Of a stretch of 64,000 bases of DNA, positions 12,201 through 58,902 are shown piece by piece. The notes beneath the pieces were generated by a model, which did no database searches, had not been told where the DNA came from, and saw only the letters and a program-made list of their open reading frames with translations. The stretch is from positions 3,070,850 to 3,134,849 of the forward strand of contig NZ_LR131273.1 of assembly GCF_900631615.1 (NCBI RefSeq), read 5' to 3'. Every line of letters starts with the position of its first letter. Position 1 is the stretch's first letter. Position numbers and translations under genes: made by a program. This DNA is from Tsukamurella paurometabola. GTDB taxonomy: Bacteria; Actinomycetota; Actinomycetes; Mycobacteriales; Mycobacteriaceae.

Positions 12201-12602
12201 ATGAACATGCGGACAACCGGAGCTCTCGGGCTCGCGATCGCGGGTGTGGCGACGATGCTCTCGGCGGGTACGGCGGCCGCGGATCCCGCGCCGCCCTATG
12301 TCGACCTGCAGGCCTTCGGCTACGTCAGTTGCGGTGGTCCGCTTCCGGACAGGCCGGAATCGAACTCGTTGATCGACCACGGATGGGTCACCAACCACGG
12401 TCCCGGCACGGCGTACGACGTTCGGGTCTGGTTCAACGGCGGCGTGTCCAGGTCCGCCGGCATGCTGGCCCCCGGGGAATCGCTGCAGATCGAGCAGGTC
12501 GTCCCGAGCTGGGGATGCCCGTTCCGGGCGATCTCGGTCAAGTCGTCGACGAGCACGTACGACATCAACAGCGGCAACAACTGGTGGGTCGCGCGCAATT
12601 GA
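12201..12602 (+). CDS. Small secreted protein, paralogue 1 (unknown function)
   Basis: 133 residues. An N-terminal signal peptide (hydrophobic residues about 5-25, AXA-type site near TAAADPAP) indicates export. The mature part of about 105 residues has two conserved cysteines, in SCGGPLPDR and WGCPFR, probably a disulfide. The pattern N-x-G-x-x-x-A-x-x-V-x-V-W ... LAPGESLQIEQ resembles CARDB/Ig-like beta-sandwich domains (inference). The start is supported by GGGGAG eight bases upstream of the ATG. It is clearly paralogous to the gene at 12869. I do not recognise a named family. Confidence 0.75.
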   Translation: MNMRTTGALGLAIAGVATMLSAGTAAADPAPPYVDLQAFGYVSCGGPLPDRPESNSLIDHGWVTNHGPGTAYDVRVWFNGGVSRSAGMLAPGESLQIEQVVPSWGCPFRAISVKSSTSTYDINSGNNWWVARN

Positions 12603-12868: not shown

Positions 12869-13264
12869 ATGAGGAAGATTGCATTGGCGGCCGCATCGGC
12901 CGCGATCGCCGGAGCCGCATCGCTGGTCTCCGCACCGTCCGCGAGCGCCTTCGTGCCCATCGTGGATCTTCAGGTCACGGGTGGGATCTCGTGCGGCGGG
13001 CCGCTGCCGGGACGGGCGGAGCCGAACTCGCAGACCGATCACGGCTACGTCCGCAACAACGGCAACGTGCCCGCGGTGAACGTCTGGCTCGGCTTCGGGG
13101 GCGGCGGGGGGCAGGGGCGCGCGTCGCTCGCGCCCGGTCAGGGCTTCGCGGCCACCCGGACGGTGCCCACGTGGGGCTGTCCGTTCCGGTCGACGTGGGT
13201 GCACACGGCGACCAGTAGCTTCGACATCAACTACAGCAACAACTACTTCGTCGCGCACAACTGA
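12869..13264 (+). CDS. Small secreted protein, paralogue 2 (unknown function)
   Basis: 131 residues with a signal peptide (MRKIALAAASAAIAGAASL, cleavage likely after SASA). The mature part aligns throughout with the protein at 12201: VDLQ-x-x-G-x-x-SCGGPLP, N-S-x-x-DHG, a central V-W segment, LAPG, VP-x-WGCPFR, and a DIN-x-x-x-NN ending in VA-x-N. Both cysteines are conserved. A Gly-rich stretch (GFGGGGGQGRAS) replaces part of one strand. The start is backed by GGGGA upstream. A weaker CRP-like half site (TGTGA at 12746) lies about 120 bases upstream. The function is unknown. Confidence 0.75.
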   Translation: MRKIALAAASAAIAGAASLVSAPSASAFVPIVDLQVTGGISCGGPLPGRAEPNSQTDHGYVRNNGNVPAVNVWLGFGGGGGQGRASLAPGQGFAATRTVPTWGCPFRSTWVHTATSSFDINYSNNYFVAHN

Positions 13265-47253: not shown

Positions 47254-47573
47254 CCGAGACGTCCGATGAGGACCGGAAGCTGGTGACCCTCGCGCGCGGC
47301 GCGATGGGCCGGGCGGGTACCGGACACGGCGCGGCGGTCCGGGACGTGGACGGCCGTACGTACGCGGGTGCTCCGGTGGCCCTCGCCTCACTGGCGCTGA
47401 CGGGGCTGCAGGTGGCCGTCGCCACCGCCCTGAGCTCCGGGGCCGAGGGCTTCGAGGCCGCGGTGATCGTCGGTGCGACCGACGGCACCGACCCCGGCGC
47501 CGCGGCGCTGCACGAGGTGTCCCCTGCGGCGCCGATCCTGTTGTTCGACGCTCGTGGAGAGGCCCTGACGTGA
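47250..47573 (+). CDS. Degenerate cytidine-deaminase-like protein
   Basis: 107 residues. [20 protein letters not shown] lines up with the cytidine deaminase segment G-R-T-Y-x-G-x-N-V-E-N-A-S-x-x-L-T-x-C-A-E. The substrate-binding Asn/Glu and the Cys/His-Ala-Glu zinc motif are replaced, and no PCxxC follows. It therefore should not be a deaminase. The same small gene is found before era in M. tuberculosis (Rv2365c). It is coupled to both neighbours by GTGA overlaps, which argues for a real, retained role. Confidence 0.75.
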
Positions 47574-48526
47574 CCGAAGAGATCCAGCCGCACGGCGACG
47601 GGGACGAGGACTTCCGGTCCGGTTTCGTCTGCTTCGTGGGGCGGCCCAACACGGGCAAGTCGACGCTGACCAATGCGCTGGTCGGGGCGAAGGTGGCGAT
47701 CACCAGTTCGCGTCCGCAGACCACGCGCTCGACGATCCGCGGCATCGTCAACCGGCCGGACTGCCAGCTGGTCCTCGTGGACACCCCCGGGCTGCACCGG
47801 CCGCGCACCCTGCTGGGGCAGCGCCTCAACGACCTGGTGCGCGACACCTACTCCGAGGTCGACGCGATCTGCCTGACCATCCCCGCGGACGAGAAGATCG
47901 GGCCCGGAGACCGGTACATCCTGGATCAGGTGCGGCACATGGCGCCGAGGACCACGCTCATCGGCGTGGTCACCAAGATCGACAAGGTGGGCCGCGTCCG
48001 GGTCGCGGAGCAGTTGGTGGCGGTGTCCGCGTTCCTCGGCGGCGACTGCGATGTGATCCCCGTGTCGGCGACCTCCGGCCAGCAGGTCGAGGACCTGGTG
48101 GACCTGCTCGCCTCGAAGATGGAGCCGGGTCCCGCCTTCTACCCGGACGACGAGGTCACCGACACCGACGACGACACGATGATGGCCGAGCTCATCCGCG
48201 AGGCCGCACTGGAGGGTGTGCGCGACGAGCTGCCGCATTCGCTGGCCGTCGTCATCGAGGAGGTGCTCGAACGGGAGAAGACGGAGGCGCAGGAGAAGTC
48301 GGGCAAGCCCGCGATGTTGGAGGTGCACGCGCTGCTCTACGTGGAGCGTCCCTCGCAGAAGGCGATCATCATCGGCAAGGGCGGTTCCCGGCTGAAGTCC
48401 GTGGGAACCGCGGCGCGTGAGGAGATCGAGAAGCTTCTGGGCCGGAAGGTCTACCTCTCCCTGCACGTCAAGGTCGCCAAGGACTGGCAGCGCGACCCGA
48501 AGCAGCTGGGGCGCCTGGGCTTCTAG
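47570..48526 (+). CDS. era: GTPase Era
   Basis: 318 residues. GTPase motifs: GRPNTGKSTLTNAL (P-loop, about 22-35), DTPGLHRPR and TKIDKVG. The C-terminal KH domain has IIIGKGGSRLKSVGTAAREE (about 263-282), which binds the 3' end of 16S rRNA during 30S assembly. It overlaps the preceding gene by 4 bases (GTGA). Its stop overlaps the end of a convergent unknown gene by 4 bases. Confidence 0.96.
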   Translation: MTEEIQPHGDGDEDFRSGFVCFVGRPNTGKSTLTNALVGAKVAITSSRPQTTRSTIRGIVNRPDCQLVLVDTPGLHRPRTLLGQRLNDLVRDTYSEVDAICLTIPADEKIGPGDRYILDQVRHMAPRTTLIGVVTKIDKVGRVRVAEQLVAVSAFLGGDCDVIPVSATSGQQVEDLVDLLASKMEPGPAFYPDDEVTDTDDDTMMAELIREAALEGVRDELPHSLAVVIEEVLEREKTEAQEKSGKPAMLEVHALLYVERPSQKAIIIGKGGSRLKSVGTAAREEIEKLLGRKVYLSLHVKVAKDWQRDPKQLGRLGF

Positions 48527-48750
48527 CGGCCGAGCATCCGCTGCCACCAGGTGCGACGCCTGTTCCGGTACTTCTCCGGGTCCGGCAGTGGACCCGGATC
48601 GTCGGCCCGGCCCTCGACGAAGTCGATCATCTGCTGCGGGACGGGTTCCTTGAAGTTCCGAAGACCGGTGATGACCACGCGGGTAATTGCGCGCTGGATC
48701 TCGGGGCTCTGTGGTCGTTGCCCCTGATCGAGGTGCTCGGTGTCAGTCAT
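48523..48750 (-). CDS. Small hypothetical protein, last gene of the era-recO cassette
   Basis: 75 residues, soluble and charged. It has a helical central part (EIQRAITRVVITGLRNFKEP), a Pro/Asp-rich linker and a basic aromatic end (RNRRRTWWQRMLGR). No family recognised. The ATG at 48750 overlaps the stop of the gene upstream by 4 bases. It converges on era with a 4-base overlap of stop regions, leaving no room for a terminator. Confidence 0.6.
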   Translation of the reverse strand: MTDTEHLDQGQRPQSPEIQRAITRVVITGLRNFKEPVPQQMIDFVEGRADDPGPLPDPEKYRNRRRTWWQRMLGR

Positions 48751-48875
48751 CGCTCGCCCTTCTTCACAGCGCGCTCACGTCCAGTATCGCCTCGGTACCG
48801 GGTCAACGCCAAGTGCGTGGCGATGTCCTTTTCAGTAGGTGTCGCCAGGGTTGAATCGATCAAGTCGTCGATCAC
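48747..48875 (-). CDS. Downstream half of a probably frameshifted small gene
   Basis: A 42-codon frame from GTG 48875: IDDLIDSTLATPTEKDIATHL followed by a basic end. It overlaps the upstream membrane gene by 4 bases (GTGA), so it could be a separate coupled gene. More likely it is the C-terminus of that gene: one extra base near 48893-48896 would join the frames as VADIERARDGWAVIDDLIDS, and the reading frame here is open upstream through DGWAVIDD without need for the GTG. A 67-codon version from 48950 is also possible. Confidence 0.5.
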   Translation of the reverse strand: MIDDLIDSTLATPTEKDIATHLALTRYRGDTGRERAVKKGER

Positions 48876-49048
48876 GGCCCAGCCGTCGCGGCCCGCTCGA
48901 TGTCCGCCACGTACGTGGCTCCCAACGCCCACTCGCATCGGGTCCACCACTCCTTCCTATTGTCTGCGAGCCGCTTCTGGCCGATCGTCACGATAGCGAT
49001 GATGGCGGCTGCACTGCCGACGATGATCGTGGCCCACCCCGGTGTCAT
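48872..49048 (-). CDS. Small membrane-anchored protein, apparently truncated by frameshift
   Basis: 58 residues. One N-terminal membrane helix (ATIIVGSAAAIIAIVTIG) is followed by KRLADNRKEWWTRCEWALGA. This R-x-E/K-WW-x-R-x-x-WAL pattern I associate with a widespread actinobacterial small-protein group that is normally about 100 residues long. Here the frame ends early (ERAATAGP). The expected continuation lies in the next frame. The ATG at 49048 has GGAGAGG upstream. Confidence 0.6.
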   Translation of the reverse strand: MTPGWATIIVGSAAAIIAIVTIGQKRLADNRKEWWTRCEWALGATYVADIERAATAGP

Positions 49049-49110
49049 GGCCTCTCCCCCCCCGAAGAAATCCGATGCTGCTGACATCGTGCACCGGACC
49101 GCTGACAGGT

Positions 49111-50667
49111 TCAGGAGTTCTGGTCCAGGAGCGCGGCGAGCGGGATCTCCTCGAGCTCCGAGTAGCCCACGCCGCGCCACCGGTACAAGCCCGCACCGGT
49201 TGCGACGAGGAACTCGTCGCCGTGGCACGCGACGGAGACCTGCGTGGTGTGGATCGGCGCGACCGCGACGGGTTCGAGGGTGTCTCCGTCGAGGCGTACG
49301 AGCAGCCAGAACTGCTCCTCGCTCCGGTACTCGCACGGTCCATCGAGCGGCCACCAGCCGTCGGCGCCGGTGCCGTCGGGGCGGTGACAGACGACGTACA
49401 GGTCGTTCCCGATCGTCCGCACGCTGCCGAAGCGCGGCGCGGTACGCGCGCTGCGGGTGACGGTGAGGTTGGGGCGCACGTCGAGGGCGATCGGGTCGCC
49501 GAACATGCCCCCGGTGAAGACGCGCGGCGGCGCACCGCCGAAGCCGTCGGGGTTGGGGCCGACGTCGTCGAGCACAGGCCCGACGGTGATCTCGCCCGCC
49601 TCGCCTACGCGTACCAGGCGGTGGGTGCGGTCCTCGGGCGCCATTTCGCCGTTGCACGTGAGAAGGAGGAAGCCGGACTCGGTGGCGATGCCCCACTCCG
49701 GGGCGTCGCCCGAGTAGAGGGACTCACCCACTTCGGCATCGCCGATGCCGATCCGATACAGCTGCACGATGTTCCGATCTTCGCGCAGGGCGATCAGCGC
49801 GGTGTCACCGCCGTCGATGACGGAGTCGACCGGCGAGGTCGACACGTGAGTGACGGCCCCGTCGGCGATCCGGAACACCCCGTCCGACCTGAACGCCCAA
49901 CAGGCGCCCTCGCAGGCCCACACGGTCGGGATCTCGTAGGCGTCCTTCGTCGTCACCGCGCCGGGCAGGAGGTGCTCCGTCGGTGCGTTCTCGTCGGCCA
50001 GGTCGAGCGCCACCACGATCGGCAGCGTGCTGTCGATGACCCAGGACCGATCACCGTCGACGGCTACGGAATCCGGGCTGATGCGCGGCTGTGGTGCCGT
50101 GAGCGGTGCATCTGCGAGGTCCAGGTCGACGACGGCCGCGAACTCGTACCGGTGCTCGTGGTCGTCAGTGACGGATGAATCGAGCCATTGAGGGCAGGCG
50201 GTGACATCGCGGTATTCGTACGTGCCGGGGACATGGACGAAGGGCTCGGTGTCGGTGGTCCGTCGAGCCAGCACGGACGCGACCCGAACCCGCAGAATCC
50301 GACCCCGTACTCGGATCGGATTCGGGTGGTAGACGTAGTCGGCGTAGACGGTGCCCCGCACGCGGACTGGCCCGATAACCGGGCGAGGGGCGCCCCATGA
50401 CACCTCCCACCCCATGCCCCGCAGCGTGGTCGGCCACCGCATGCGCCGGTCATCGTCACGGCCGGTGACAGACGGTGCACCGCGGGGAATCGCCTCGGCG
50501 GAGAGCTCTGTGACCCCCGCGTCGCTGGGGTCCGGAACGCCCTCCTCGCGGAAACCGATCACGTACTCGCCGATCTCGCCGACCACGGGAGGCGGCGGTG
50601 ATCCGTCGCTCAACATCCAGCTCGCAAGGCTGACGCGCAGCGGCACCGAGGCGGTGGGCTCCGTCAT
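49111..50667 (-). CDS. Large unknown protein: paralogous N-domain plus propeller-like repeats
   Basis: 518 residues. The N-terminal 190 (from PPPPVVGEIGEYVIGF to FAAVVDLDLADAP) repeat the whole of the neighbouring 184-residue protein at about one-third identity by eye. The remaining 320 residues consist of successive beta-rich units such as SVAVDGDRSWVIDSTLPIVV, CWAFRSDGVFRIADG, FLLLTCNGEM and EFLVATGAGLYRWRG, which suggest a beta-propeller. There is no signal peptide or membrane helix. ATG 50667 overlaps the upstream stop by 4 bases. Function unknown. Confidence 0.7.
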   Translation of the reverse strand: MTEPTASVPLRVSLASWMLSDGSPPPPVVGEIGEYVIGFREEGVPDPSDAGVTELSAEAIPRGAPSVTGRDDDRRMRWPTTLRGMGWEVSWGAPRPVIGPVRVRGTVYADYVYHPNPIRVRGRILRVRVASVLARRTTDTEPFVHVPGTYEYRDVTACPQWLDSSVTDDHEHRYEFAAVVDLDLADAPLTAPQPRISPDSVAVDGDRSWVIDSTLPIVVALDLADENAPTEHLLPGAVTTKDAYEIPTVWACEGACWAFRSDGVFRIADGAVTHVSTSPVDSVIDGGDTALIALREDRNIVQLYRIGIGDAEVGESLYSGDAPEWGIATESGFLLLTCNGEMAPEDRTHRLVRVGEAGEITVGPVLDDVGPNPDGFGGAPPRVFTGGMFGDPIALDVRPNLTVTRSARTAPRFGSVRTIGNDLYVVCHRPDGTGADGWWPLDGPCEYRSEEQFWLLVRLDGDTLEPVAVAPIHTTQVSVACHGDEFLVATGAGLYRWRGVGYSELEEIPLAALLDQNS

Positions 50668-51218
50668 GACGCCGATCCGGATTCGCCGGGGTCGGTGAGA
50701 TCGAGGTCCACGATGACGGCCCAGTCGAAGCGACTGCCCCCAGGAGTGGGTGTCTCGTCGTCGTACCTCCTCGGCGCGGCCCCGACGTCGCGGTGGCGGA
50801 TCGTCCCCGGAATCGGGCGCCAGGCCTGCCTGCCTCCAGGATCTCCCGGCCAGGGTTCGAGGCGCATCTCGACCGACTCGATGCGGACCCGGATCACACG
50901 TCCCCGCACGTCGGGCGTGCCCATGTGATTGGCGTGGAATGTGCCGTGCAGCCGAACCGGGCCGTTCACTGGAGCTGTTCCGTGCGCCTCGTACCTCCAA
51001 CCGGGGCCGGAGTACACCGTCGGCCAGCGGCGCAGCCCGTCGACGGCGATGTAGGAGCTGCCGGTGACCGTTGCCGTCGCTTCGATGTCGACGACGGCGG
51101 TGTCGTCCGAGTGGGCGACGTCCTCAACGGCGAAGAAAATGAGCGGGTACTCGCCGATGTCGCCGACGACGGGAGGGTCGATGCTGTCGTCCTCGATGTC
51201 CCAGGTGTTGATCACCAC
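50664..51218 (-). CDS. Unknown protein, single copy of the paralogous domain
   Basis: 184 residues from GTG 51218 (VVINTWDIEDDSIDPPVVGDIGEY split near residue 20). It corresponds to the N-terminal domain of the next gene: VVG-x-IGEY, RWPT-x-x-x-G-x-G-W, PV-x-GPVR-x-x-GT, VRGR-x-x-RVR, PGT-x-x-x-RDV and VDLDL-x-D are shared in order. Start uncertain: GTG 51215 and ATG 51269 are in frame, and none has a clear ribosome site. It is the first gene of the leftward cassette, divergent from recO. No known family. Confidence 0.65.
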   Translation of the reverse strand: MVINTWDIEDDSIDPPVVGDIGEYPLIFFAVEDVAHSDDTAVVDIEATATVTGSSYIAVDGLRRWPTVYSGPGWRYEAHGTAPVNGPVRLHGTFHANHMGTPDVRGRVIRVRIESVEMRLEPWPGDPGGRQAWRPIPGTIRHRDVGAAPRRYDDETPTPGGSRFDWAVIVDLDLTDPGESGSAS

Positions 51219-51254: not shown

Positions 51255-51327
51255 AGTACAACATGGCATTGAGGTGTGGGAGCGTCGATCGCGCCGGATG
51301 TCCGGCGGGGGTGGGATGATGTTCTGC

Positions 51328-52125
51328 ATGAGGTCGTACCGGGACAGCGCTGTGGTGCTGCGGCAGCACAAGCTGGGGGAGGCCGACTACATCCTCACCC
51401 TGCTGACCCGGGACAACGGCCTGGTCCGCGCCGTCGCGAAGGGGGTGCGCCGGCCGCGGTCGCGGTTCGGCGCCCGGCTGGAGCTGTTCGCGCACGTCGA
51501 CCTGCAGCTGCACCCCGGCCGCAACCTGGACATGGTGACGCAGGTGCACTCCATCGCCGCCTACTCGGGTGACCTGGCCGGCGACTACGGCCGCTACACC
51601 ACGGCCTGCGCGGTGATCGAGACGGCGGAACGGCTCGCGGGCGAGGAGCGGGCACCGGCGCTGGAGTTGCACCGGCTCACCGTCGGCGCGCTGCGCGCCA
51701 TCGCGGCCGGCGTGCGCGACCGCGACCTGGTGCTGATCTCGTTCCTGCTGCGTGCCATGGAGTCGGCGGGCTGGGCGCCCGCCCTCACGATCTGCGCCCG
51801 CTGCGGCGACGAAGGACCCCACCGTGCCTTTCACGTGGCTGCGGGCGGCGCCGTCTGCGTGCACTGCCGTCCGTCGGGATCGGCGGTGCCCGGGCAGGGG
51901 GTGCTGGACCTGATGGCGGCGCTGGCCCGGGCCGATTTCGACTTCGCCGAGACCACGGGCGAGCGGGTGCGCAGGCAGGCCAACGGGCTCGCCGCCGCGC
52001 ACCTACAGTGGCACGTGGGGCGGCAGCTGCGGTCGCTGCCCATGATCGAGCGGCACGCGCCGCACAGTCCGGCCCTCGCGGCCGGTGAGAGGGAGGTCGA
52101 CGGTGCCGGGACTGCGGCGGGGTAG
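51328..52125 (+). CDS. recO: DNA repair protein RecO
   Basis: 265 residues. The N-terminal OB fold [20 protein letters not shown] and [21 protein letters not shown] is followed by the C-terminal domain with a zinc-type [14 protein letters not shown] ... CVHC. RecO loads RecA onto SSB-coated DNA with RecR. ATG 51328 is chosen by homology; ATGs at 51316 and 51319 are in frame and closer to GGGGGTGGG. It is divergent from the unknown cassette. Confidence 0.93.
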
Positions 52126-55473: not shown

Positions 55474-56736
55474 GTGAAGGGCCTGGCTTACATCGACGCG
55501 GACGGCAAGGAAGCCGTCTGGACCGACCACAAGAAGCGACTCTGGCTGTGGGGCCTGTTCGTTCCCACGGCGTTGTTCTTCGCGGTGGGGCTCATGATGC
55601 TGCTCGGCATCGGCCACACGCCGCTGATGTATCTGGCGCCGGTGCTGTGGTGGATCGGTCCGCTGCTCCTCTACGTCATCCTCCCGATCGTCGACATCAA
55701 GGCCGGCGACGACGGCGAGAACCCGCCGGAGGAGGTGATGGAGGCGCTCGAGGAGTCCAAGTACTACCGCTGGTTGACGTACATCTTCCTGCCGTGTCAC
55801 CTCGCCTCGCTCATCGCGATGTGCTACTTCATCACGGCCGACGACCTGTCCTGGCTGGGCGGCGTGTACTCGGACGGCGGCGGCCTCGGCCTGATCAGCC
55901 AGATCGGCGTCACGCTGAGCCTCGGTGTCGTCACCGGCATCGGCATCAACACCGGCCACGAGCTGGGGCACAAGAAGCCGGAGAACGAGCGTTGGATCGC
56001 CAAGCTCACCCTCGCACCCGCCATGTACGGCCACTTCTTCATCGAGCACAACCGCGGCCATCACGTGCGCGTCGCCACCCCGGAGGACCCCGCGAGCGGC
56101 CGCTTCGGCGAGACCTTCTGGGAGTTCCTGCCGCGCAGCGTGTGGGGCAGCTTGAAGTCCTCGTGGAACCTGGAGAAGACGCGTCTCGAGCGCCTCGGCA
56201 AGAGCCCGTGGACCCTCACGAACGACGTGCTCAACGCGTGGCTGATGACCGTCGTGCTGTACGGAGTGCTGACCGCGGTGTTCGGCTGGTACGTGCTGCC
56301 CTTCCTGATCGTCCAGGGGATCTACGGGTTCAGCCTGCTGGAGTCGGTGAACTACCTCGAGCACTACGGTCTGCTGCGCCAGAAGACCGCCTCCGGCCGC
56401 TACGAGCGCTGCGCGCCGCGGCACTCGTGGAACTCGGACCGCATCATCACCAACGTCTTCCTCTACCACCTGCAGCGGCACAGCGACCATCACGCGAACC
56501 CCACGCGCCGCTACCAGACCCTCCGCTCCTTCGAGGAGGCCCCGTCGCTGCCCCAGGGCTACGCCACCCTGATCGGCGTGACCTACTTCCCGCCGCTGTG
56601 GCGCAAGATCATGGACCACCGCGTCCTGGACCACTACGACGGTGACATCACCAAGGTGAACATCCACCCCCGCGTCCGCGACAAGGTGCTCGCGAAGTAC
56701 GGCGCGCCGAGCACCGGAGAGCAGGCCGCCGCATGA
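55474..56736 (+). CDS. alkB: Alkane 1-monooxygenase
   Basis: 420 residues, integral membrane non-heme di-iron hydroxylase that oxidises medium-chain alkanes to 1-alkanols. The histidine boxes are all present: NTGHELGHKK, EHNRGHHVRV and LQRHSDHHAN, plus the AlkB signature NYLEHYGLLRQ. Six hydrophobic segments are seen. GTG 55474 has AAGGAGG seven bases upstream; the frame is open further up but that part is promoter. It is followed by its electron-transfer partners in one operon. Confidence 0.95.
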   Translation: MKGLAYIDADGKEAVWTDHKKRLWLWGLFVPTALFFAVGLMMLLGIGHTPLMYLAPVLWWIGPLLLYVILPIVDIKAGDDGENPPEEVMEALEESKYYRWLTYIFLPCHLASLIAMCYFITADDLSWLGGVYSDGGGLGLISQIGVTLSLGVVTGIGINTGHELGHKKPENERWIAKLTLAPAMYGHFFIEHNRGHHVRVATPEDPASGRFGETFWEFLPRSVWGSLKSSWNLEKTRLERLGKSPWTLTNDVLNAWLMTVVLYGVLTAVFGWYVLPFLIVQGIYGFSLLESVNYLEHYGLLRQKTASGRYERCAPRHSWNSDRIITNVFLYHLQRHSDHHANPTRRYQTLRSFEEAPSLPQGYATLIGVTYFPPLWRKIMDHRVLDHYDGDITKVNIHPRVRDKVLAKYGAPSTGEQAAA

Positions 56737-56894
56737 GCGCCTTCAAGTGCCCCGTCTGCGACTACGTGTACGACGAGACCTCCGGCGCCCCGCGAGAAGG
56801 CTGGCCCGCCGGCACCGCCTGGGCCGATATCCCCGACGACTGGAACTGCCCCGACTGCGGGGTTCGCGACAAGATCGACTTCGAGCCCGTCTGA
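56733..56894 (+). CDS. Rubredoxin (first copy)
   Basis: 53 residues, one iron held by four cysteines in CPVCDYVYDE and CPDCGV. The ATG overlaps the alkB stop by 4 bases (ATGA). The insertion after the first Cys pair (DETSGAPREG) is longer than in the second copy, and CPVCDYVYDE resembles the AlkG1-type rubredoxins that often do not support alkane hydroxylation (family knowledge, applied by inference). Confidence 0.93.
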   Translation: MSAFKCPVCDYVYDETSGAPREGWPAGTAWADIPDDWNCPDCGVRDKIDFEPV

Positions 56895-56927
56895 GACGGA
56901 TCAGAAAGACCGAGAAAGGAATCCATC

Positions 56928-57116
56928 ATGAGCGACGCGCCCTTCAAACTGTTCCGCTGCCTGCAGTGCGGCTTCGAGTACGACGAGGCCGAGGGCTGGC
57001 CCGAGGACGGTATCGAGCCCGGCACCCGCTGGGACGACATCCCGGACGACTGGTCCTGCCCCGACTGCGGCGCCGCCAAGGCCGACTTCGAGATGGTCGA
57101 GGTGTCGCGGGCATGA
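56928..57116 (+). CDS. Rubredoxin (second copy)
   Basis: 62 residues with iron ligands in [18 protein letters not shown] and CPDCGAAK. The first motif, C-x-x-C-G-F-x-Y-D-E-A-x-G, fits the AlkG2-type rubredoxin that passes electrons to AlkB. AGAAAGGA precedes the ATG. It lies 33 bases after the first copy and overlaps rubB by 4 bases. Confidence 0.93.
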
Positions 57117-58297
57117 GCACCGACGGCGTGGTCATCGTCGGCACGGGCGTCGCGGGCGCCACCGCGGCCCTGGCGCTGCGGACCGGCGGGTTCGAGGGAG
57201 CGGTGACCCTCGTCGGCCGTGACGCGCACCTCCCGTACCGACGGCCCACGCTGTCGAAGGACGTGCTCCTGGCGGGGATGCCGGTCGAGAAGGCGCTCCT
57301 GAAGCCGGCGACGCACTGGGACGACATCGGGGTCGTGGTCCGCACCGGGGTCACCGTGACGGGAGGCGACACCGCGGCCCGCACTCTGGAGCTGTCCGAC
57401 GATTCCGTCCTTCCGTACGGCTCCCTGGTCCTGGCCACCGGTGGTGCGGCGCGGGAGCTGCCCGGCCTGCCGCCCGCGCCCCGTGTGAAGTACCTGCGGG
57501 ACTTCGCGGACGCGATCGCGCTCCGCGACGAACTCGGCCGGGCGGGCAGCGTGATCGTTCTCGGGGCCGGTCTCATCGGCTCGGAGGTGGCCTCGGCCGC
57601 GGCGAAACTGGGTGCGACCGTCACCGTGATCGAGCCGGCCCCCTTGCCGCTCGCCCGCGTCGTGCCGCCGTCGATCGGCGAGCGCCTCGCCGGCCTGCAG
57701 CGCGACGCCGGTGTCGACCTGCTGCTCGGCGTCCGGCCGGGGGAGATCGCCGTCGAGCCCGACCAGGTCTCCGTCGCCCTCCCCGGCGGCGTGGCGCTCG
57801 TCGCCGACCTGCTGGTCGTCGCGGTGGGGTCGAGCCCCGACACCGGGCTGGCCGAGCGCCTGGCCCTGCGGGTCGACGACGGTATCCTGGTGGACGAGCA
57901 GTACCGCACGTCCGCCGAGGGCGTCTACGCCGTCGGTGACTGCGCACGCGTGCCGCATCCGCTGGAAGGCGGTACCTACCGCGCCGAGAACTGGTCGGCG
58001 GCGCAGGACCAGGGCACGGCCGTCGCGCAGGTGCTCCTCGGCGGCGCGCCGGCGCCCACGGTTCCGTGGGGCTGGTCGAACCAGTTCGGGGCGGTGCTGC
58101 AGTTCGCGGGATGGCCCGCGGCGGACGACGAGCTGGAGGTGGACGGCGCCATGGACGCGGCGAGCAGTGAGCCCTTCTTCGCGCGGTGCCGCCGCGGCGG
58201 ATCCCTCGCGGGCGCCGTCGCGATGGGCCGGCCCAAGGAACTGCGGGCGGCCCGCGGCGAGCTGTCCGAGCAGATCGCGGCGGCGGTCGCGCGATGA
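57113..58297 (+). CDS. rubB: Rubredoxin reductase
   Basis: 394 residues, FAD/NAD(P)H-dependent. The FAD site is [17 protein letters not shown], the NAD site [20 protein letters not shown] (about residue 145) and the second FAD motif [13 protein letters not shown] (about 270). It reduces the rubredoxins for AlkB. ATG 57113 overlaps the second rubredoxin stop by 4 bases. Confidence 0.93.
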
Positions 58298-58902
58298 CCG
58301 TCCTCGTCGGGCGCGACGCCGCTGACGCCGCACCCAAGCAGACGGTGCGGGACCAAGCGCTCGACGCGGTGAGCACGGTCCTCCACGGGCGGGAGTGGTC
58401 CGCGGTCACGATGGCCGCGGTCGCCCGCGAGGCGGGGGTGAGCCGGCAGACGCTCTACAACGAGTTCGGTTCCCGTAAGGGCATGGCGGTCGCCTACGTG
58501 ACCCGGTTCGTCGACGGGCTCCTCGCGTACGTGCAGGAGCGGATCGACGCCCACCCCGGCGAGATCGACGCCGCCGTCGAGGACGCGATGTGCGGCGTCT
58601 TCGAGATCGGTATGGGTGACCCCGTCGTCATCAACATCGTGGGTCCGAACCCGCATCGCGACCTCATGGGGATCGTGACGATCGACGGTACGCCGATCAT
58701 GCAGCGCGCGGCCGAAGGGCTCGCGGAGATCCTCGCCATGAGCTGGGCCCAGGTCCGGCGGGCCGACGCGCAGGTCGCTGCGGGCGTCCTCGTCCGCCTC
58801 GCCTTCAGTCACCTGACGATGCCCATCGAGGGGCCGGAGGCGGCGGCGCGCGAGGTGTCCGCCGTGCTCTCGCCGTTCCTCACCCGCGCCGTTCGCGCCT
58901 GA
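58294..58902 (+). CDS. TetR-family regulator of the alkane operon
   Basis: 202 residues. The N-terminal helix-turn-helix is MAAVAREAGVSRQTLYNEFG (residues 39-58). The C-terminal ligand domain (VEDAMCGVFEIGMGDP) is like AlkX/AlkU proteins that sense fatty acids or alkanes in actinobacteria. ATG 58294 overlaps the rubB stop by 4 bases, so it is made with the operon it probably controls through the inverted repeat at 55381. Confidence 0.9.
   Translation: MTVLVGRDAADAAPKQTVRDQALDAVSTVLHGREWSAVTMAAVAREAGVSRQTLYNEFGSRKGMAVAYVTRFVDGLLAYVQERIDAHPGEIDAAVEDAMCGVFEIGMGDPVVINIVGPNPHRDLMGIVTIDGTPIMQRAAEGLAEILAMSWAQVRRADAQVAAGVLVRLAFSHLTMPIEGPEAAAREVSAVLSPFLTRAVRA

Follow-up and report, generated by a model that had tools for sequence, protein, structure and literature searches.

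Two independent accessory gene modules in the variable interval between era and recO of Tsukamurella paurometabola

The stretch of DNA analyzed here (the window; 64,000 nucleotides of contig NZ_LR131273.1) is part of the single-contig, 4.70 Mb genome of Tsukamurella paurometabola and carries, between the end of era at position 48526 and the start of recO near 51319, five reading frames on the minus strand that span positions 48523–51218 (Table 1). These frames are real, accessory and partly damaged, and they belong to two independent modules located at a variable spot: module 1 codes for two related proteins, P184 and P518, and module 2 for a small membrane protein and its partner, P75. All the products listed in a preliminary description of this DNA (184 residues, 518 residues, a small membrane protein and 75 residues) are present. 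The 4-base overlaps it reported were also found, between P184 and P518, between the 58-residue and 42-residue frames of the membrane gene, and between the latter and P75; the exception is the junction of P518 with the membrane gene, where 62 bp separate the two. In addition, the end of P75 overlaps the end of era by 4 bp. The ratio of non-synonymous to synonymous divergence (dN/dS) was 0.25–0.53 for P518 (10 pairs), 0.10–0.59 for P75 (15 pairs) and 0.23–0.30 for the intact membrane genes of relatives (3 pairs). Thus, the frames are more than chance.

Table 1. Reading frames of the two modules and flanking genes (positions in the window)
Feature	Position	Strand	Description
P184	50664..51218	-	DUF6578-related stand-alone protein, 184 aa; GTG start, in-frame upstream start possible
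P518	49111..50667	-	518 aa; DUF6578-related N-terminal domain and predicted C-terminal beta-propeller
Membrane gene, piece 1	48872..49048	-	58 aa; frameshifted single-pass membrane protein gene, module 2
Membrane gene, piece 2	48747..48875	-	42 aa; frameshifted membrane protein gene; corresponds to profile positions 53-95
P75	48523..48750	-	75 aa; small partner protein of module 2, intact
era (flank)	47570..48526	+	
recO (flank)	51319..52125	+	start approximate

Variation of the era–recO interval in the genus and the order

Among 16 genomes of the genus (genomes and loci are designated by G and L numbers, respectively), P518 is found in five (G000, which carries the window, G002, G003, G010 and G012), an intact P75 in seven (G000, G001, G002, G003, G004, G010 and G011), an intact membrane gene in three (G003, G004 and G010) and P184 in G000 only; one genome, G005, has a remnant of the membrane gene without P75, and seven have none of the four genes. 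P518 occurs without the membrane gene in G002 and G012, and the membrane gene with P75, without P518, in G001 and G004. Because the parts vary independently, we assign them to two modules, and not to the single cassette originally proposed; likewise, the suggestion that the membrane protein is an anchor coupled to P518 does not hold as an obligate association, since each occurs without the other. The patchy presence that had been anticipated is confirmed by the survey of era–recO intervals, which shows the genes in some of the close relatives only.

Era was present in 61 of 61 genomes, 49 of which were covered by the interval survey (the window, eight and 40 loci), the remaining 12 lying outside it. 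RecO was found downstream of era in 44 of the 49. For the 28 of those 44 that are from outside the genus, and with RecO starts extrapolated, the distance to era is 10 bp or less in three, whereas in 25 there are gaps of 475–5968 bp, filled with predicted genes of many kinds (genes in the relatives' genomes were called with a purpose-made simple caller, and names such as amidase, TetR, kinase-like and luciferase-like were assigned by eye). The adjacency of era and recO is thus not conserved, contrary to what had been assumed: the gap is a cargo site, not a conserved junction, and since the spot is variable in the order, foreign genes there are not unusual per se. In two other species of the genus (G014 and G006; L098 and L093) the same gap is filled by different, unrelated genes. 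In Tsukamurella tyrosinosolvens, the interval from era to recO contains both small genes, with hypothetical protein as their annotation (L163; NZ_LR134460.1, 92959–101261); this record, deposited as plasmid 18 of the species, holds era, recO, an isoprenyl transferase gene, ybeY and a PhoH gene, and is therefore probably a piece of chromosome.

For G000, G002, G003 and G010, the synonymous distance (dS) of P518 was 0.218–0.614, as compared to 0.322–0.410 for era and 0.18–0.26 for recO; its non-synonymous distance (dN; 0.082–0.191) was well above that of both era (0.025–0.064) and recO (0.003–0.020). The P518 of G012 is more distant, with a dS of about 1.0. P75 is at odds with the tree of the flanking genes (built on era, recO and uppS, with some supports low): the P75 proteins of the sister genomes G002 and G010 share 60% identity, as compared to 88% between G002 and G011.

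The membrane gene and its partner

Module 2 is a recurrent actinobacterial gene pair, damaged in the window by a frameshift in the membrane gene. In nine aligned homologues the membrane protein is encoded in one frame of 91–106 residues, which confirms the frameshift postulated in the preliminary description, and shows an AD.R.E.W.R motif after an N-terminal hydrophobic segment (19-residue mean of about 2.1 in two homologues). The gene is also frameshifted in G001, at a different place. A profile of the nine homologues (A4) detected the gene in 28 of the 298 genomes sampled from the order, and the gene was found in 16 of 394 genomes sampled across the class, eight of the 16 being from the window's own family and also in the 298-genome sample. 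G023, a single-contig genome of the same family, gave seven matches, two of which are pieces of one broken copy, so that the gene occupies six places in this genome.

Fifty-five membrane-gene loci were taken, and the gene was recovered by script in 54. A partner gene was found within 450 bp downstream in 45 of the 54 loci (E < 0.01), as opposed to none of 54 in each of the upstream, antisense and distant windows (E < 0.1); the partner profile was iterated for three rounds on the downstream windows and not on the controls, and the seven partner seeds came from these loci, the figures being 38 of 47 when they are excluded and 39 of 54 with the seed profile alone. The membrane gene and its partner are thus conserved together as an adjacent pair, often overlapping by 4 bp. 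In G011 (L084:5960-6301) the partner gene is a frame of 113 residues, with two near-identical repeats of the partner domain. At E ≤ 0.1, module 2 was detected on 13 plasmid records, including those from Gordonia, Mycobacterium avium and Pseudarthrobacter; the one from Tsukamurella is probably chromosomal. Searches of Pfam, NCBIfam, PADLOC and PHROGs gave no match above cut-off for module 2, the one in PHROGs being weak. P75 was also compared with domain Y of the pPIWI_RE island, to which it aligns over 41 residues in PADLOC (E 7.6e-5); the score of 21.5 bits falls short of the cut-off (26.7 bits), and the partner relatives in L092 and L166 gave no match to this domain at E 0.1.

P184, P518 and the family DUF6578

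The domain said to be common to P184 and P518 is indeed shared, P184 being 39% identical to the N-terminus of P518 (E 9.7e-25). In a domain tree, P184 is sister to five Tsukamurella P518 proteins (support 0.94); as sister to all five, it seems to stem from an old duplication, not from a recent one. Neither protein reaches the curated cut-off of DUF6578 (PF20218; 27.8 bits), with 14.5 bits for P184 and 12.8 bits for P518. However, this cut-off is passed by relatives, namely a propeller-bearing plasmid protein (L158; 31.1 bits), which P518 matches over 98% of the query (E 2e-32), and a stand-alone protein (L208; 73.3 bits), which P184 matches at E 2e-5. We therefore file P184 and P518 as DUF6578-related, not as strict members; they are divergent relatives of this uncharacterised family. 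The homologous domain is common to both, whereas P184 and P518 have no counterpart to the cysteine pair (ECC) that is visible by eye in L206, L208 and L210, and P518 differs further by its added propeller. No paper on DUF6578 was found in the literature searched, and with this uncharacterised family as the sole match the two proteins belong, as first stated, to no recognised characterised family. The C-terminal part of P518 is a predicted beta-propeller. The structure model of P184 is all beta (pLDDT 82), and its similarity list is dominated by OB-fold proteins (SSB, PriB and HIN domains).

Relatives of module 1 were found in 11 of 298 genomes of the order and on 12 plasmid records, 11 from Rhodococcus and one from Dietzia. 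In the 12 plasmid neighbourhoods viewed, a SUKH gene adjoins the relative on one Rhodococcus plasmid (31.7 bits, against a cut-off of 25.4) and a barstar gene on another (33.8 bits, against 23.4), and three have an annotated DUF2716 nearby. SUKH genes are few in the genomes of relatives, with 39 matches spread over 22 of the 61. Other relatives of module 1 stand singly among metabolic or housekeeping genes. When families were counted over 30 neighbourhoods with 302 predicted proteins, some of the loci being mutually related, two families, one DUF2716-like (confirmed by Pfam for one member) and the other unnamed, each occurred in 6 loci, and four more hypothetical or cold-shock families in 3–4 loci each; ordinary families recur likewise (ABC ATPases in 6 loci, TetR-type in 4). 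The plasmid neighbourhoods are a slight, indirect hint that P184 and P518 may have a role in conflict. In G020 (L077 / L139) three DUF6578-related matches are clustered, one with an internal stop, and in L159 (NZ_CP089607.1) two DUF6578-related genes are divergently oriented, and a Fic gene and an annotated VbhA antitoxin are found close by.

Elsewhere in the window, two neighbouring small proteins (12201–12602 and 12953–13264) have a similar stretch around CGGPLP, and an apparent alkane hydroxylase cluster (55474–58902; by eye) has genes for a membrane oxygenase-like protein, two rubredoxin-like proteins, an oxidoreductase and a TetR-like regulator.

Proposed roles and comparison with known systems

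The best explanation of the whole, to which we give a probability of about one in three, is that P184 and P518 are orphan immunity-type proteins against the toxins of rivals, and that P75 restrains the membrane protein. P184 and P518 would be soluble cytoplasmic binding proteins that recognise and neutralise protein toxins delivered by competing relatives, binding being the task of the all-beta domain, and the propeller offering a further surface for interactions. An immunity-type role was chosen because the tandem paralogues, the variability and the plasmid neighbours recall polyimmunity loci described in the literature; no toxin gene was recognised by eye at the locus. The two proteins could instead be accessory regulators or binders in a metabolic or envelope process, with no part in conflict and a patchiness due to gene turnover in a permissive gap. 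This we hold to be quite possible: there is purifying selection, many different genes occupy the gap and several relatives stand singly beside unrelated metabolic genes, whereas the tandem paralogues, the fast protein change and the immunity-type neighbours at two plasmid loci argue against it. It is unlikely, in our view, that P184 and P518 bind nucleic acids or act as scaffolds, with the DUF6578-like domain forming an OB-like beta-barrel and the propeller docking a partner, for example in stress regulation or mobile-DNA defence instead of toxin neutralisation, a role consistent with their all-beta models and with the OB-fold proteins that lead the list for P184. That all five frames are functionless remnants in decay would fit the frameshifted membrane gene and the remnants in G005 and G011, yet this is already disfavoured by dN/dS values well below 1 for P518, P75 and the intact membrane genes, and we consider it very improbable.

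Under the immunity-type reading, P75 probably acts by binding to the membrane protein at its cytoplasmic part and holding this part in check; in the window the membrane gene would have been lost, with the partner remaining. Module 2 may also be viewed by itself, as a toxin-antitoxin-like pair in which P75 restrains a harmful membrane protein, P184 and P518 being unrelated passengers, a proposal that we regard as less likely than not. For such a pair, loss of the membrane gene with retention of P75 is the pattern expected, and an intact P75 with the membrane gene broken or gone was found in four of the 16 genus genomes (G000, G001, G002 and G011), the reverse never being seen; the membrane gene is also split, with the partner present, in L178, L220 and L228. 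The downstream position of the partner as compared to the controls, the frequent overlaps, the several places occupied in one genome and the plasmid records point in the same direction. Several observations weigh against a toxin-antitoxin-like pair: in L177 and L181 membrane protein and partner apparently form a single fusion, as judged by eye and from profile matches with E 1.3e-7 and 6.5e-11, nine of the 54 membrane-gene loci are without a recognised partner, the membrane-gene remnant of G005 stands without P75, and errors in draft genomes may mimic frameshifts.

A bolder proposal, which we think improbable, is that Actinobacteria possess, in module 2, a mobile and undescribed membrane conflict system made of two genes, with a single-pass EWW-motif membrane protein and a small, overlapping, restraining partner, that the DUF6578-propeller proteins are an undescribed immunity class, and that both use the era–recO gap as a cargo site. 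What appeared to be a one-off cassette has become a pair of subjects open to testing: a gene pair of scattered occurrence and a branch of DUF6578 that bears a propeller. If either is a conflict system, a role would be gained for a set of hypothetical proteins that Rhodococcus, Tsukamurella and relatives encode on chromosomes and plasmids; if neither is, the era–recO gap is still seen as a cargo site.

Toxin-antitoxin modules with a membrane toxin consist of two short, often overlapping genes. Module 2 is like them in its short overlapping genes, its several places per genome, its presence on plasmids and the inactivation of the membrane gene with the partner kept, but differs by the fused forms and by having no library match above cut-off. 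For module 1, the comparison is with the polyimmunity loci of polymorphic toxin systems, which are tandem immunity paralogues without a toxin gene and with strain-variable content (PMC3482391). The window differs from the loci described there in that it holds no recognised immunity superfamily; it is like them in the tandem paralogues P184 and P518, in a content that varies between species without a recognised toxin gene, and in the two Rhodococcus plasmid relatives that have SUKH or barstar as a neighbouring gene.
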